Source of the DNA: an uncultured Sphingobium sp.
GTDB taxonomy: Bacteria; Pseudomonadota; Alphaproteobacteria; Sphingomonadales; Sphingomonadaceae
Direction: 5' to 3'
Assembly: GCA_913773715.1 (NCBI GenBank)
Contig: CAJYHD010000295.1
Span: forward strand, 1-7,086
DNA length: 7,086 nt
The position numbers and the translations under genes are program-made. Below, piece by piece: positions 3,342 to 7,086 of the stretch. Below the pieces are notes generated by a model that worked only from the letters and a program-made list of their open reading frames with translations, was not told where the DNA came from and searched no databases. Each line of letters begins with the position of its first letter. The stretch's first letter is position 1.

Positions 3342-3896
3342 ATGTCGATGAGAAAGCTGTTCACGATCGCGGCGCTGATGACGGCGGCGGCTGTCTCGCC
3401 CGCGCTGGCTCAGGCACCGGAGAATAGTGGGCCGGTTGGCGGTGACAATGAGAAGGTCAATCTCGTCATCGTCTATGGCAACGACCCCTGCCCGCAAAGC
3501 CAGGGCAGCGACATCGTCGTGTGCGCGCGCAAGGGCGAGGAGGAACGCTATCGCATCCCTGAACCACTGCGCGGCGATCCCAACAAGCCGAGCAACCAGG
3601 CATGGGGTGAACGGATGCGGTCGATGGAATATGTCGGTCGGTCGGGCACGGAAAGCTGCTCGCCTGATGGCGGCGGCGGCGCGACGGGCTGCTTCACCAA
3701 GCTGGCGCGGCTCGCCAAGGCGGAGCGGCGGGCGGCGAACGACGCCAGCTGGAAGGATTTGGTCGCGGCCGAGCGGGATCGCCGCCTGTCGACCATCGAC
3801 GCCGACAGCGAGAAGATCGAGGCACGGGTAAAGGCCGAGGAAAAGGCGCAGGCCGATCTGGAGAAGAATCAGAGCGCGACGCCCGCACCGCAATGA
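3342..3896 (+). CDS. Secreted four-cysteine protein of unknown function, paralogue 1
   Basis: I cannot assign a function. The 184-residue product starts with a signal peptide (MSMRK, a hydrophobic Ala/Leu core, then ALA|Q at about residue 23), so the mature protein is probably periplasmic. Residues 44-77 contain VYGNDPCP, IVVCAR and ERYRIP. A second conserved block is SCSPDGGGGATGC. The only cysteines are 50, 61, 106 and 117, arranged as C-x10-C and C-x10-C, which suggests two disulfides. Residues about 118-175 are highly charged (Ala, Arg, Lys, Glu) and probably helical or coiled coil; this tail is absent from the downstream paralogue. The gene begins 9 bases after coq7, so it likely belongs to the dsbB-coq7 transcript. 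The ATG at 3348 is an alternative start. Similar 'IVVCAR...ERYRIP' proteins are, from memory, frequent in sphingomonads without a known role. Confidence 0.8.
   Translation: MSMRKLFTIAALMTAAAVSPALAQAPENSGPVGGDNEKVNLVIVYGNDPCPQSQGSDIVVCARKGEEERYRIPEPLRGDPNKPSNQAWGERMRSMEYVGRSGTESCSPDGGGGATGCFTKLARLAKAERRAANDASWKDLVAAERDRRLSTIDADSEKIEARVKAEEKAQADLEKNQSATPAPQ
3471..3572 (+). repeat. Paralogous repeat, copy 1 (core of the four-cysteine protein)
   Basis: These 34 codons align without gaps to 4083-4184. The encoded segments are identical at 24 of 34 residues by my count, and the DNA around the IVVCAR codons is nearly identical. This indicates tandem gene duplication rather than a mobile repeat. Confidence 0.7.
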
Positions 3897-3971: not shown

Positions 3972-4373
3972 ATGCGGCATAATGCTGTTCTCCCCTTGCT
4001 GACCCTAATCGGTGCGACTTCCGTTGTACCCGCCGCCCTCGCGCAGCCCGCTCCGCCGCCCGAGCGGATCATGAATCTCACCGTCTATGGCGACGATCCC
4101 TGCCCCAAAAGCGAGGGAAACGAGATCGTCGTGTGCGCGCGGCGGCCAGAGTCGGAGCGCTATCGCATTCCCAAGAAGCTGCGCGAAAAGCCGGAAGTCG
4201 CGGGTGGTCCCGGCTGGGGTAGCCAGGTCGCGACGATGGAACAAACGCAGCGGCAAGTCTTGCCCAACAGCTGTTCGCCCAACGGCAGCTACGGCTTTAG
4301 CGGATGCGCGGCGCAGGCTCTGGCACAGTGGTTCGCAGAGCGGCGGATGATGCAGTCTCAGGGCAATCCCTGA
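3972..4373 (+). CDS. Secreted four-cysteine protein of unknown function, paralogue 2
   Basis: Function unknown. The 133-residue product has a signal peptide (MRHN, a Leu/Ala core, then ALA|Q at about residue 24) and a short Pro-rich stretch, so it should be exported. Residues 38-71 carry VYGDDPCP, IVVCAR and ERYRIP, and residues 100-112 carry SCSPNGSYGFSGC. Cysteines 44, 55, 101 and 112 repeat the C-x10-C ... C-x10-C layout of the upstream gene, with an inter-pair distance differing by one residue. It stops shortly after the second pair and lacks the long charged tail of paralogue 1. It lies 75 bases after that gene. GAAGGA (3957-3962) precedes the ATG by 9 bases, a rather long spacing. It converges on a minus-strand gene only 7 bases away. 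Confidence 0.8.
   Translation: MRHNAVLPLLTLIGATSVVPAALAQPAPPPERIMNLTVYGDDPCPKSEGNEIVVCARRPESERYRIPKKLREKPEVAGGPGWGSQVATMEQTQRQVLPNSCSPNGSYGFSGCAAQALAQWFAERRMMQSQGNP
4083..4184 (+). repeat. Paralogous repeat, copy 2 (core of the four-cysteine protein)
   Basis: Partner of 3471-3572, with the same 34-codon block in the second paralogue. Substitutions fall mostly in the positions between the invariant Cys, Pro, Gly and Arg residues, as expected under protein-level constraint. Confidence 0.7.
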
Positions 4374-4380
4374 GGACGGA

Positions 4381-4542
4381 TTAGCGGGCGCGCGGCTCGT
4401 AGGCGCGCTTGGCAGCGTTCACCTTGTCGATCAGGCTGATGAGCGATTCCGGCGCGTGCCGCGGTGTCGATGGCGCGACTGGATGCGCGGCCATGCGGCG
4501 GCTGAGCGCGAGGAAGGCGGTGTCGATGCTGTCGCGGCCCAT
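4381..4542 (-). CDS. Small hypothetical protein (about 53 residues)
   Basis: I do not recognise a family. Starting at the ATG at 4542-4540, the product begins MGRDSIDTAFLALSRRMAAH, has a Pro-rich middle (VAPSTPRHAPES), and ends in a helical basic segment (LISLIDKVNAAKRAYEPRAR). By my count 47 of 53 codons end in G or C, matching the neighbouring real genes. The frame stays open upstream to a TTG at 4578, but those 12 extra codons lose the GC-ending bias, so I prefer the ATG. No strong ribosome binding site is visible; a weak GGGAC lies about 13 bases upstream. It lies 54 bases after the SDR gene on the same strand and could share its transcript. There is no signal peptide or membrane segment. 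It may be a cytoplasmic small protein, or a non-coding open frame. Confidence 0.5.
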   Translation of the reverse strand: MGRDSIDTAFLALSRRMAAHPVAPSTPRHAPESLISLIDKVNAAKRAYEPRAR

Positions 4543-4596
4543 GACCAGTGCTTGTGTCCCTGATTTCGCTGTGCACAAGCTATGGGATCGACGTGG

Positions 4597-5445
4597 TTAA
4601 GGAAGTGTAAGCGACGATGCCGGTTGCGACCAGCCGAAGCGGCTTTCTTCGCGGCACGCGGCAAGGCCCTCGCGGTAGGTGCGATAGCGGGGCGACCAGC
4701 CGAGTAGCCGCCTGGCGCGACCGGTGGCGATCCGACGGTTCTCCGCATAGAAGCCGCGCGCCATGGGGAACAGATCGGCCTCCTCCAGCGTCTTGAGCGG
4801 CGGGTAGGGCAGGCCAGCAAGATCGCAGGCCGCCTCGATCACGCGGTTCTGCGAACAGGGCAAGTCGTCGGCGAGATTGTAAATGCCGGGCGGTCCTTTG
4901 AACGACGCCATGATGCCGGAGACGATGTCGTCGACATGGATGCGGCTGAAGACCTGATCGGGTAGATCGATGCGGTGCGCCTTGCCTTCCGTGACGCGCT
5001 CGATCGCCGAGCGGCCGGTGCCGTAGATGCCGGGAAGCCGGAAGCGGACGACATCCGGGCGAAGCGCGCCCCATGCGGCATCGGCGGCGGCACGGGCGGA
5101 GCGGCGGCCCTGGCCGACGGCCGCGCTTTCATCGACCCACGCGCCGCCGGTGTCGCCATAGACGCCGGTGGAGGACAGATAACCGACCCATAGCGCAGGT
5201 GCGCAAGCAAGCACTTCGCCAAAGCGGGCGAGAACCGGGTCGATGTCGCCATCGGGTGGGACGGAGGAGAGAATATGTGTGGCGCTGACGATGGCGGCGC
5301 GGACGGCTGGCGCGTCATCGAACGCGAGTATATCTGGCGCAGCGGATCGACGGACGCCGGTGACTTGCCAGCCCGCCAGTCGCAGACGATCGGCAAGACG
5401 CGAGGCTGTGTAACCAAGCCCCAGGATCAAGATGTGGGGTGTCAT
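4597..5445 (-). CDS. NAD(P)-dependent epimerase/dehydratase-like protein (extended SDR, YeeZ-like)
   Basis: This is a cytoplasmic Rossmann-fold protein of 282 residues. The N-terminal ILILGLGYTASRLADRL gives a GxGxxxxxL dinucleotide-binding motif at residues 9-17. VRRS (about 31-34) after the second strand could favour NADP. Further extended-SDR landmarks are YLSSTGVYGDTGG (89-101), FRLPGIYGTGR (135-145) and FSRIHVDDI (166-174), where nucleoside-sugar epimerases have their domain-boundary motif. I see no clear YxxxK catalytic pair after the SSTGVYG block, a feature of the YeeZ-type subgroup. The substrate and reaction therefore cannot be named. AGGGGG (5451-5456) precedes the ATG by 5 bases. 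The gene starts 20 bases after the A-type carrier gene, so it is probably cotranscribed with the suf genes. A direct role in Fe-S assembly is not implied. Confidence 0.85.
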   Translation of the reverse strand: MTPHILILGLGYTASRLADRLRLAGWQVTGVRRSAAPDILAFDDAPAVRAAIVSATHILSSVPPDGDIDPVLARFGEVLACAPALWVGYLSSTGVYGDTGGAWVDESAAVGQGRRSARAAADAAWGALRPDVVRFRLPGIYGTGRSAIERVTEGKAHRIDLPDQVFSRIHVDDIVSGIMASFKGPPGIYNLADDLPCSQNRVIEAACDLAGLPYPPLKTLEEADLFPMARGFYAENRRIATGRARRLLGWSPRYRTYREGLAACREESRFGWSQPASSLTLP

Positions 5446-5465
5446 TGCCGCCCCCTAGCAAGCTT

Positions 5466-5744
5466 TCAGACCGTGAAGCTCTCGCCACAGCCGCAGCTGC
5501 CCTTGGCATTGGGATTGTTGAAGACGAAACCGGCGGTGAAATCATCCTCAACCCAGTCCATCGTCGATCCGACGAGATAGAGGACTGATGCGCCGTCGAT
5601 ATACAGGACACCGCCGGGCGTTTCGATCTTCTCGTCGAACTTCGCTTCGTCGGTCACATAATCGACCGAATAGGCAAGGCCCGAACAGCCGCGACGGGGG
5701 GTCGAAAGCTTAACGCCGATCGCACCCTCAGGAGCCTGCCCCAT
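5466..5744 (-). CDS. sufA: A-type Fe-S carrier (SufA/IscA, HesB family), N-terminally truncated
   Basis: This scaffold/carrier binds an Fe-S cluster and delivers it to apo-proteins. All three cluster cysteines are present: Cys20 (RRGCSGLAY), Cys84 and Cys86 (GSCGCGESF). The 64-residue spacing equals that of E. coli IscA (35, 99, 101). From ATG 5744 the protein has only 92 residues and begins at MGQAPEGAIGV, about 15 residues short of IscA before the first cysteine. The same frame upstream reads SAQQRIADL (5745-5771), which looks like the expected helix 1. Beyond that it loses family resemblance and reaches an in-frame stop near 5830. ATG 5744 is therefore probably the internal Met of the original protein. 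No ribosome binding site precedes it, so translation would depend on coupling to the sufT stop codon (5728-5730), which lies downstream of this ATG. It looks like the surviving 3' part of a gene cut by a deletion. The product may be missing or unstable. Confidence 0.85.
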   Translation of the reverse strand: MGQAPEGAIGVKLSTPRRGCSGLAYSVDYVTDEAKFDEKIETPGGVLYIDGASVLYLVGSTMDWVEDDFTAGFVFNNPNAKGSCGCGESFTV

Positions 5745-6126
5745 CAGGTCGGCGATACGCTGCTGCGCCGACGCGTAGCTCGACTTCGCCGGGCATCGAT
5801 TCGGCGACCGGGCAATGGGGCGTCGTCAACGTCATGGTGACGACGGCATGGCCATCTTCCGTCACATCGACCCCGTAGATGAGGCCAAGATCGTAGATGT
5901 TGACTGGAATCTCCGGGTCGTAGATTTCCTTCAGTGCATCGATGATCCCATCATAGAGACTGCCGCCCGGCTCGCCCGCAGGTGCTTCGGTCGGCTTCTG
6001 TGCGAGGAAACCGTCGAGATAGTCGCGCTGGCGCGGGGCGGTTTCCGCCACATCCTCGACGCGCGCCTTGGGCGGGGTCGCCACTGCCTCGACTTCTTCC
6101 ACCGCAAATTTCTGTTCTTCGCTCAT
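5728..6126 (-). CDS. sufT: SUF system DUF59/MIP18 protein (SufT), C-terminally truncated
   Basis: SufT is an auxiliary Fe-S maturation factor encoded with SUF genes. The 132-residue frame has an acidic, Ala/Pro-rich N-terminal region (1-55) and then the DUF59 domain: GIIDALKEIYDPEIPVNIYD, LGLIYGVDV, and TTPHCPVAESMPGEVELRVG with the conserved Cys105. Family members normally continue from here into a PGV..V.V.LVW.PPW segment and a C-terminal helix. Here residues 121-132 (AAAYRRPDGAGS) are unrelated and end at a stop. Those bases also encode the start of the A-type carrier in another frame. No other frame nearby contains the missing WxPPW segment, so a simple frameshift does not explain it; a deletion does. 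The ATG overlaps the sufS stop (ATGA), and GAGGAA lies upstream. Loss of the last strand probably harms folding, so this may be a pseudogene. Confidence 0.85.
   Translation of the reverse strand: MSEEQKFAVEEVEAVATPPKARVEDVAETAPRQRDYLDGFLAQKPTEAPAGEPGGSLYDGIIDALKEIYDPEIPVNIYDLGLIYGVDVTEDGHAVVTMTLTTPHCPVAESMPGEVELRVGAAAYRRPDGAGS
5755..5775 (-). other. Inferred deletion junction between sufT and sufA
   Basis: SufT family similarity ends at GTC GGC GCA (Val-Gly-Ala, 5764-5772 on the minus strand). A-type carrier similarity starts, in a different frame, at TCG GCG CAG CAG (Ser-Ala-Gln-Gln, 5760-5771). The two readings share the bases TCGGCGCA, so the join may have used a short direct repeat. The amount missing, estimated from usual family lengths, is on the order of 150-250 bases. 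Assembly collapse or a sequencing artefact would look the same. Confidence 0.6.
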
Positions 6127-7086
6127 CCGAAGATCTTCCTCACTCGTTGTATTCCGTGCACCAGCGCATCAACATCGCTGTCGTCGCTGTAGATGCCGAA
6201 GCTCGCCCGTGCCGTCGCCTCGACACCCAGATGGCGCATCAGCGGCTGCGCGCAATGATGGCCCGCCCGGATGGCGACGCCGGTTTCGTCCAATATGGTG
6301 CCGACATCGTGCGGATGCACCCCCTCCACCTCGAAAGAGAGGATGCCCGCGCTGTCTTCCGGCCCGAAGACGCGAACGCTGTTCAACCCTTCCAGCGCGG
6401 CACGGGCGCGGCCGACCAAGGCACATTCATGCGCGTGGATCGCATCGAGGCCGATCGCCTGCACATAATCGATCGCGGCGGCGAGGCCCACGACACCCGC
6501 GATATGCGGTGTGCCTGCCTCGAACCGTGTCGGTGCGGGCGCATAAGTGGTCTTTTCGAACGTCACCTTGTCGATCATCGACCCGCCCCCCTGATAGGGC
6601 GGCATGGCGTCGAGCAAGTCCCTGCGACCCCAGAGCGCGCCGATGCCGGTCGGGCCGTAGAGCTTGTGCGCGGAGAAGACGTAGAAGTCGCAATCGAGCG
6701 CGGTCACATCGACGGCGAGGCGCGGCACGGCCTGACACCCATCGATCAGGATCTTCGCGCCGACGCCATGCGCGATGTCGGCGGCGCGGCGGCAGTCGAG
6801 CACGCTGCCCAGCACGTTCGACACATGGGCAAGCGCGACCAGCTTGTGTTGCGGCGTGATCATCGCGGCCATGGCGTCGAGGTCGATCCGGCCATCTTGC
6901 GTCAACGGCACGACGTCGATCGCCGCGCCGACACGCTCGGCAACGATTTGCCAGGGCACGATGTTGCTGTGATGCTCCAGCGTGGAGAGCAGGATGCGGT
7001 CGCCCGCCTTCAGTTGCGTGCCCGCCCAGCTCTGCGCGACGAGGTTGATCCCCTCGGTCGCGCCGCGCACGAAGACGACTTCGCTG
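6123..7086 (-). CDS. sufS: Cysteine desulfurase SufS (N-terminus off the right edge)
   Basis: This is a PLP-dependent class V aminotransferase-fold enzyme that takes sulfur from L-cysteine, forming alanine and an enzyme persulfide for SUF cluster assembly. About 321 residues are visible, and the frame is open through the edge (SEVVFVRGATEGINL). Compared with E. coli SufS (406 residues), roughly 85-90 N-terminal residues are missing. LEHHSN, IDGCQAVP and FSAHKLYGPTG are present; the Lys of SAHK (6663-6665) is the PLP Schiff-base residue. RAGHHCAQPLM holds the persulfide-forming Cys (6252-6254), in the short-loop form typical of SufS rather than IscS. GGGSMI and TRFEAGTP also fit the family. 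The end, IQRVRKIFG, overlaps the sufT start by 4 bases, so translation of the two is probably coupled. The sulfur acceptor (SufE or SufU) and the sufBCD genes are not in the window. Confidence 0.95.
   Translation of the reverse strand, partial: SEVVFVRGATEGINLVAQSWAGTQLKAGDRILLSTLEHHSNIVPWQIVAERVGAAIDVVPLTQDGRIDLDAMAAMITPQHKLVALAHVSNVLGSVLDCRRAADIAHGVGAKILIDGCQAVPRLAVDVTALDCDFYVFSAHKLYGPTGIGALWGRRDLLDAMPPYQGGGSMIDKVTFEKTTYAPAPTRFEAGTPHIAGVVGLAAAIDYVQAIGLDAIHAHECALVGRARAALEGLNSVRVFGPEDSAGILSFEVEGVHPHDVGTILDETGVAIRAGHHCAQPLMRHLGVEATARASFGIYSDDSDVDALVHGIQRVRKIFG

Follow-up and report, generated by a model that had tools for sequence, protein, structure and literature searches.

The window analyzed here is a 7,086-base stretch of sphingomonad DNA. 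It encodes the proteins P0001 (SufT) and P0241 (SDR), whose longest listed contig likewise measures 7,086 bases, so it very probably represents an entire contig, probably a metagenomic one. The minus strand carries, in this order, the 3' part of sufS, sufT, sufA, and an SDR-like gene. The plus strand carries part of an M23 peptidase gene and genes for a CtpA-type S41 peptidase, DsbB, COQ7, and two small exported-looking proteins. The sufS part (6123–7085, minus strand) encodes the last 320 residues of the protein and matches TIGR01979 with 460.3 bits over model positions 82–403 of 403; its 5' end lies beyond the window edge, so that the intactness of sufS, stated in the original prediction, is visible for this part only. 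The surroundings of sufT in other genomes were represented by 80 loci, the best of 560 loci with a gene for a relative of SufT, and sufS was present in all of them. The SDR-like gene (4597–5445, minus strand) is open and encodes 282 amino acids. Relatives occur in 22 of the 80 loci, and relatives from a protein search are named SDR family oxidoreductase. It lies 20 bases downstream of sufA and probably belongs to the same operon.

The two small proteins encoded on the plus strand adjoin each other (3342–3896 and 3972–4373) and have starts that resemble signal peptides by eye. They are related to one another, with 45% identity over 95 residues and a common motif VYG.DPCP.S.G..IVVCAR, and their relatives also lie side by side in loci L020 and L021. 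A search of Pfam returned no match for either. Between them and the SDR-like gene lies a 65-residue open reading frame (ORF) on the minus strand (4381–4578) that likewise had no match in Pfam. Relatives in 19 of the 80 loci, one of which (L043) shows 70.6% identity over part of the sequence, make it probable that this ORF is a genuine small gene.

The sufT ORF (5728–6126, minus strand) encodes 132 amino acids, of which only residues 1–120 (5767–6126) match SufT. Family similarity ends at GEVELRVG and is followed by 12 unrelated residues, AAAYRRPDGAGS, and a stop codon (5728–5766 for the tail and stop). As the original prediction had stated, the similarity to DUF59 thus stops abruptly after GEVELRVG, and both the ORF list and the alignment agree on this. 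The 12-residue tail is sufA DNA read in another frame. What does the truncated SufT lack? Compared with the relative P0002, the last 34 residues are lost, including a strongly conserved segment, VNLVWDPPW, and everything C-terminal to it; the predicted absence of the C-terminal VW.PPW part was therefore borne out, as VNLVWDPPW does not appear after residue 120. The fragment scores 60.3 bits against PF01883. Against TIGR02945 (SUF_assoc) it reaches 97.4 bits, below the cut-off of 143.4, and covers only model positions 2–65 of 99, whereas two intact SufT relatives score 147 and 152.3 bits and extend to position 99. The fragment keeps the DPE...T..C motif, with DPEIP and TTPHC present; this motif, which contains a reactive cysteine, is reported as the SufT motif (PMC9045647). 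Without the conserved C-terminal segment, the 132-residue product, if expressed, is expected to be non-functional. An AlphaFold model of SufT was poor (mean pLDDT 41.0) and was left unused. The truncated SufT is represented by one sequence (P0001) from one contig, which is as long as the window. Another short SufT, P0112, has 142 residues and lacks the last 13; it is encoded on a 4,319-base contig and may simply run off the end of that contig.

Similarity to SufA starts in a different frame from that of sufT, at SAQQRIADLM, and runs to the C-terminus (5466–5771, minus strand). The predicted onset of HesB-family similarity in another frame was thus correct and could be placed at the Ser codon 5769–5771. 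The fragment corresponds to residues 19–119 of the 119-residue relative P0121, so the first 18 residues are lost, or 27 if the loss is counted from the first ATG. A check of the frame showed that it is open from 5825 but contains no ATG, GTG, or TTG before an internal ATG at 5742–5744, which corresponds to residue 28 in P0121 numbering. In other words, the fragment has no complete N-terminus, since no in-frame start codon lies upstream of the internal ATG, and this only standard start left gives an ORF (5466–5744) of 92 residues. The fragment nevertheless passes the cut-offs for A-type carriers (PF01521, 62.9 bits against a cut-off of 26.3; TIGR00049, 92.9 against 58.8) and keeps the three cysteines, with GCSG and CGCG present. 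Based on a structural model of P0121 (mean pLDDT 72.6), a SufA protein made from the internal ATG would lack the strand formed by residues 14–16 and most of the helix formed by residues 18–30. The 92-residue piece, if expressed, is likewise expected to be non-functional.

Findings from a close alignment of 15 of the 80 loci converge on a single gap. The window was colinear with all 15 relatives on both sides of one point (~5764–5771, minus strand), where the matches to relatives break and to which the estimate of shared bases at the junction also refers. In the reversed window, the first matching stretch ended at 1322–1324 and the second began at 1317–1328 in these 15; over all comparisons with relatives, matches ended at 1319–1324 and resumed at 1314–1328. 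Compared with the relatives, 163 bases were missing in seven cases, 166 in three, 175 in one, and 211–291 in four. The four with 211–291 extra bases have a spacer between sufT and sufA, and the 11 without a spacer account for the values of 163–175. In all 15 relatives, the missing pieces lay between sufT and sufA. They comprised the end of sufT, equal to 34 residues, together with any spacer and the codons for SufA residues 1–18 (compared with P0121). The truncation of both sufT and sufA follows from this one deletion-type gap because a single offset is seen against all 15 relatives, in line with the proposal that one deletion accounts for both losses. That the sequence reads as a deletion, with ~163 bases or more missing, is hardly in doubt. 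The spacers themselves, which measure 44–124 bases in L008, L010, L013, and L014, contain stretches rich in C and in G that by eye appear to be inverted. In the other 11 aligned relatives, the sufT stop and the sufA start are a few bases apart or overlap.

The age of the gap was addressed by the ratio of nonsynonymous to synonymous substitutions. Against the 15 relatives, the window gave a median dN/dS of 0.110 in the sufT fragment, 0.097 in the sufA fragment, and 0.104 in sufS; the corresponding medians between relatives were 0.145, 0.098, and 0.095. The ratio is thus not raised in either fragment, and the idea that they are old pseudogenes was rejected. The event is either very recent on the dN/dS scale or not biological, because neither fragment shows decay. 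General sequence damage is not supported either. The sufS part, the SDR gene, and the genes for both small proteins, CtpA, DsbB, and COQ7 have open frames that can be aligned over as much as the relatives cover; for both small proteins, CtpA, DsbB, and COQ7, the comparison draws on two or three loci. The M23 peptidase part (3–773) is without a counterpart in the 80 loci and falls outside this comparison. The sequence therefore does not appear generally poor, as the comparable genes showed no other lesion, which counts against an artefact.

Is the short arrangement a natural form of these genes? A compact form could in principle work if a short SufT and an N-terminally shortened SufA were made through overlapping, coupled translation. 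Eleven bases lie between the ATG at 5742–5744 and the sufT stop at 5728–5730, a geometry that would allow reinitiation, and both the SufA cysteines and the DPE...T..C motif of SufT are retained. However, this reading would demand a SufT that operates without its strongly conserved VNLVWDPPW segment and a SufA that operates without the 14–16 strand and most of the 18–30 helix. It would also predict relatives with the same arrangement, and surveys of relatives found none. In all 80 loci, the SufT frame reached its usual C-terminal end with sufA located within 1 kb of sufT, and the alignment of SufA began no later than residue 14 and continued through the end of the protein. All 94 genomes of the genus of genome G005 matched the window. 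In 93 of them the sufS-sufT stretch was present, and in all 93 the match ended at query positions 1318–1323 (numbered one lower than the other reversed-window positions), which is the junction. The 94th genome (G053) gave a trace match only (E 7.6e-4), which is uninformative on the junction, and some genomes occur in both the set of 80 loci and the set of 93 genomes. At the level of the family, 121 bases around the junction matched 337 of 397 genomes, and none of the about 150 matches listed covered both sides. The best of these scored 90.6 bits over positions 1–62; the listed matches reach E 1.7e-13, so that a weaker match across the junction is not strictly excluded. A short arrangement conserved in many relatives would have spoken against a recent loss, and it was seen in 0 of 80 loci, 0 of 93 genus genomes, and no listed family match. 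A conserved natural gene form was rejected on these grounds, and a working compact form is very improbable.

A plasmid-borne copy of the short form was also considered. A megablast search of a plasmid collection with 4597–7085 returned one record, from Sphingomonas parapaucimobilis, which was 76.6% identical and ended at query position 1316. This sole match is not the same form, and a plasmid copy was rejected. The record itself (NZ_CP155753.1, 115077–116394) is a 385-kb replicon listed as a plasmid that carries sufS and a gene for a SUF assembly protein, indicating that a secondary replicon can host this suf operon.

An intact allele from the same species was absent from the best 120 of 8,000 hits. 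Among the matches listed, the best other relative of the SDR gene was 87% identical, and two further close SDR sequences exist beyond those matches because the P0241 cluster comprises three sequences. The closest SufA among the matches listed was P0121 (97%). P0121 probably comes from another species than the window, as P0245, the SDR attributed to its source, is only 76% identical. Clusters formed at 90% identity, such as P0002 with its three members, could hide a SufT from the same species.

The sequence at the junction bears on how the two ends were joined. Breakpoints equivalent to those in the window could be mapped in 98 of 110 loci and gave 87 distinct sequence pairs, the 25 with the longest matches being listed. 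The maximum among the 87 pairs was 8 shared bases. Four bases were shared in L105 (on the same contig as L004), L015, L091, and L107, which have the SAQ reading with a GCG Ala codon, and fewer than four in L001, where SAQ is read with GCA. When random breakpoint pairs 120–220 bases apart were drawn in four relatives, at least 4 shared bases occurred in 2.4–2.5% of trials and at least 7 in 0.04–0.12%. The junction thus probably contains a short shared sequence of 4–10 bases. A lost parent sequence coding TASAQQ, as in P0121, with GCG TCG GCG would raise the value to 10. A 7-base TCGGCGC match, proposed originally, is possible, the parent sequence of the window being unavailable for comparison. 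The DNA at the junction forms no notable hairpin (z -1.24).

Short-match breakpoints fit two processes equally well, namely a cellular deletion between short direct repeats and a template switch during library preparation. Short direct repeats are typical of real bacterial deletions. An exact overlap of ~10 bases or less is too short for de Bruijn assembly at k = 21 or higher to collapse on its own, so a read, real or chimeric, must have carried the join. Under either process, the outcome would be one deletion-type join, probably at two short matches, that links the beginning of sufT to the end of sufA in a different frame. The join is seen in a single contig from a Sphingobium-like species that is otherwise unsampled.

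Could a strain live with such a join? Zymomonas mobilis belongs to the same order as the source of the window. Its suf genes are reported to be essential, yet disruptions of sufA are on record there too (PMC12817903), and a knockdown of the whole suf unit is described as causing oxygen-specific defects (PMC10746277). SufT is reported to be essential in Mycobacterium tuberculosis (PMC9045647). A strain with the sufT-sufA lesion should be rare given these reports of essentiality. In Staphylococcus aureus, sufA, sufT, and double mutants are reported to grow; loss of sufA alone left growth unimpaired in the media used there, and the double mutant behaved like the sufT single mutant in two media out of three and grew worse in the third (PMC4982691). 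The lesion thus need not be lethal, considering these mutants and the Z. mobilis sufA disruptions.

The gene content of relatives suggests where a substitute might come from. Two A-type carrier (PF01521) proteins were present in each of 10 relatives, and in the one genome checked (G005) the second carrier passes the ErpA cut-off (118.5 against 117). The suggestion that a second A-type carrier such as ErpA might compensate is therefore plausible, with ErpA itself seen in that one genome. For SufT, the same 10 genomes encode one PF01883 protein each and no second. In these relatives, then, a stand-in is plausibly in sight for SufA, and by the PF01883 count none for SufT. With ISC considered as a back-up, PF01592 was matched in 5 of the 10, and 3 of the 10 were barely over the cut-off, with a best E of 2.7e-4.

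Two origins of the join have to be weighed. It may have arisen from a chimeric read or a low-coverage assembly, outside any living population, and there is a slight lean to this chimeric origin in library or assembly over a real deletion because the suf genes are reported to be essential in Zymomonas. The competing account, somewhat less than an even prospect, is a real and very recent deletion in a strain, in which ~163 bases or more were lost through misalignment or end joining at short direct repeats. Such a deletion would have inactivated sufT and sufA at once, leaving the remaining SUF machinery to assemble clusters and ErpA and other carriers to deliver them. A real deletion would explain the clean single lesion in a window whose comparable genes showed no other, and it is consistent with the 4-base match in four relatives that ~2.4% of random pairs reach. 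The second A-type carrier kept in all 10 relatives, ErpA in the one tested, and the growth of the S. aureus double mutant (PMC4982691) also argue for it. However, the deletion is absent from the 93 genus genomes with the locus and from the listed family matches, neither fragment shows relaxed selection, a second PF01883 protein is missing in all 10 relatives, and the Z. mobilis suf genes are reported as essential (PMC12817903). The weights given to the two origins rest on the absence of the short form in relatives, on the cost that a loss of SufT would probably carry, and on our own rough priors. Because a chimeric join fits the sequence equally well, a loss of both functions in a living strain is not established. 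It appears unlikely that a living Sphingobium-like lineage has lost SufA along with its sole SufT and still depends on SUF for iron-sulfur assembly, with ErpA and other carriers delivering clusters, despite the reported essentiality of the suf genes in the related Z. mobilis.

Whichever origin applies, the join looks like a local accident and not like a new mechanism or a new kind of gene. A real deletion would amount to a natural double knock-out and would mean that a sphingomonad presumed to depend on SUF can do without SufT and SufA. A chimeric join would serve as a warning that one metagenome contig is enough to mimic gene loss in a core operon.

Both origins have known counterparts. Deletions between short direct repeats have two breakpoints, a possible short match between them, loss of the DNA in between, and colinear flanks, as in the window; they differ in arising in cells, which is one of two possible origins here, and the parent sequence of this species is unavailable. 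Chimeric reads or joins in metagenomes occur at short matches and are seen in one contig only, again as in the window, except that here a chimeric read would have to dominate the assembly. The closest natural system is the Sphingobium-type suf operon, sufS-sufT-sufA, found for example in Sphingobium sp. TCM1 (L002), S. bisphenolivorans (L015), and S. terrigena (L021), which has the same gene order and strand as the window. The matched part of SufT is 89%, 83%, and 79% identical to the window in these three, respectively, and that of SufA is 94% in TCM1 and 96% in S. bisphenolivorans. Unlike in this operon type, both sufT and sufA are cut in the window.
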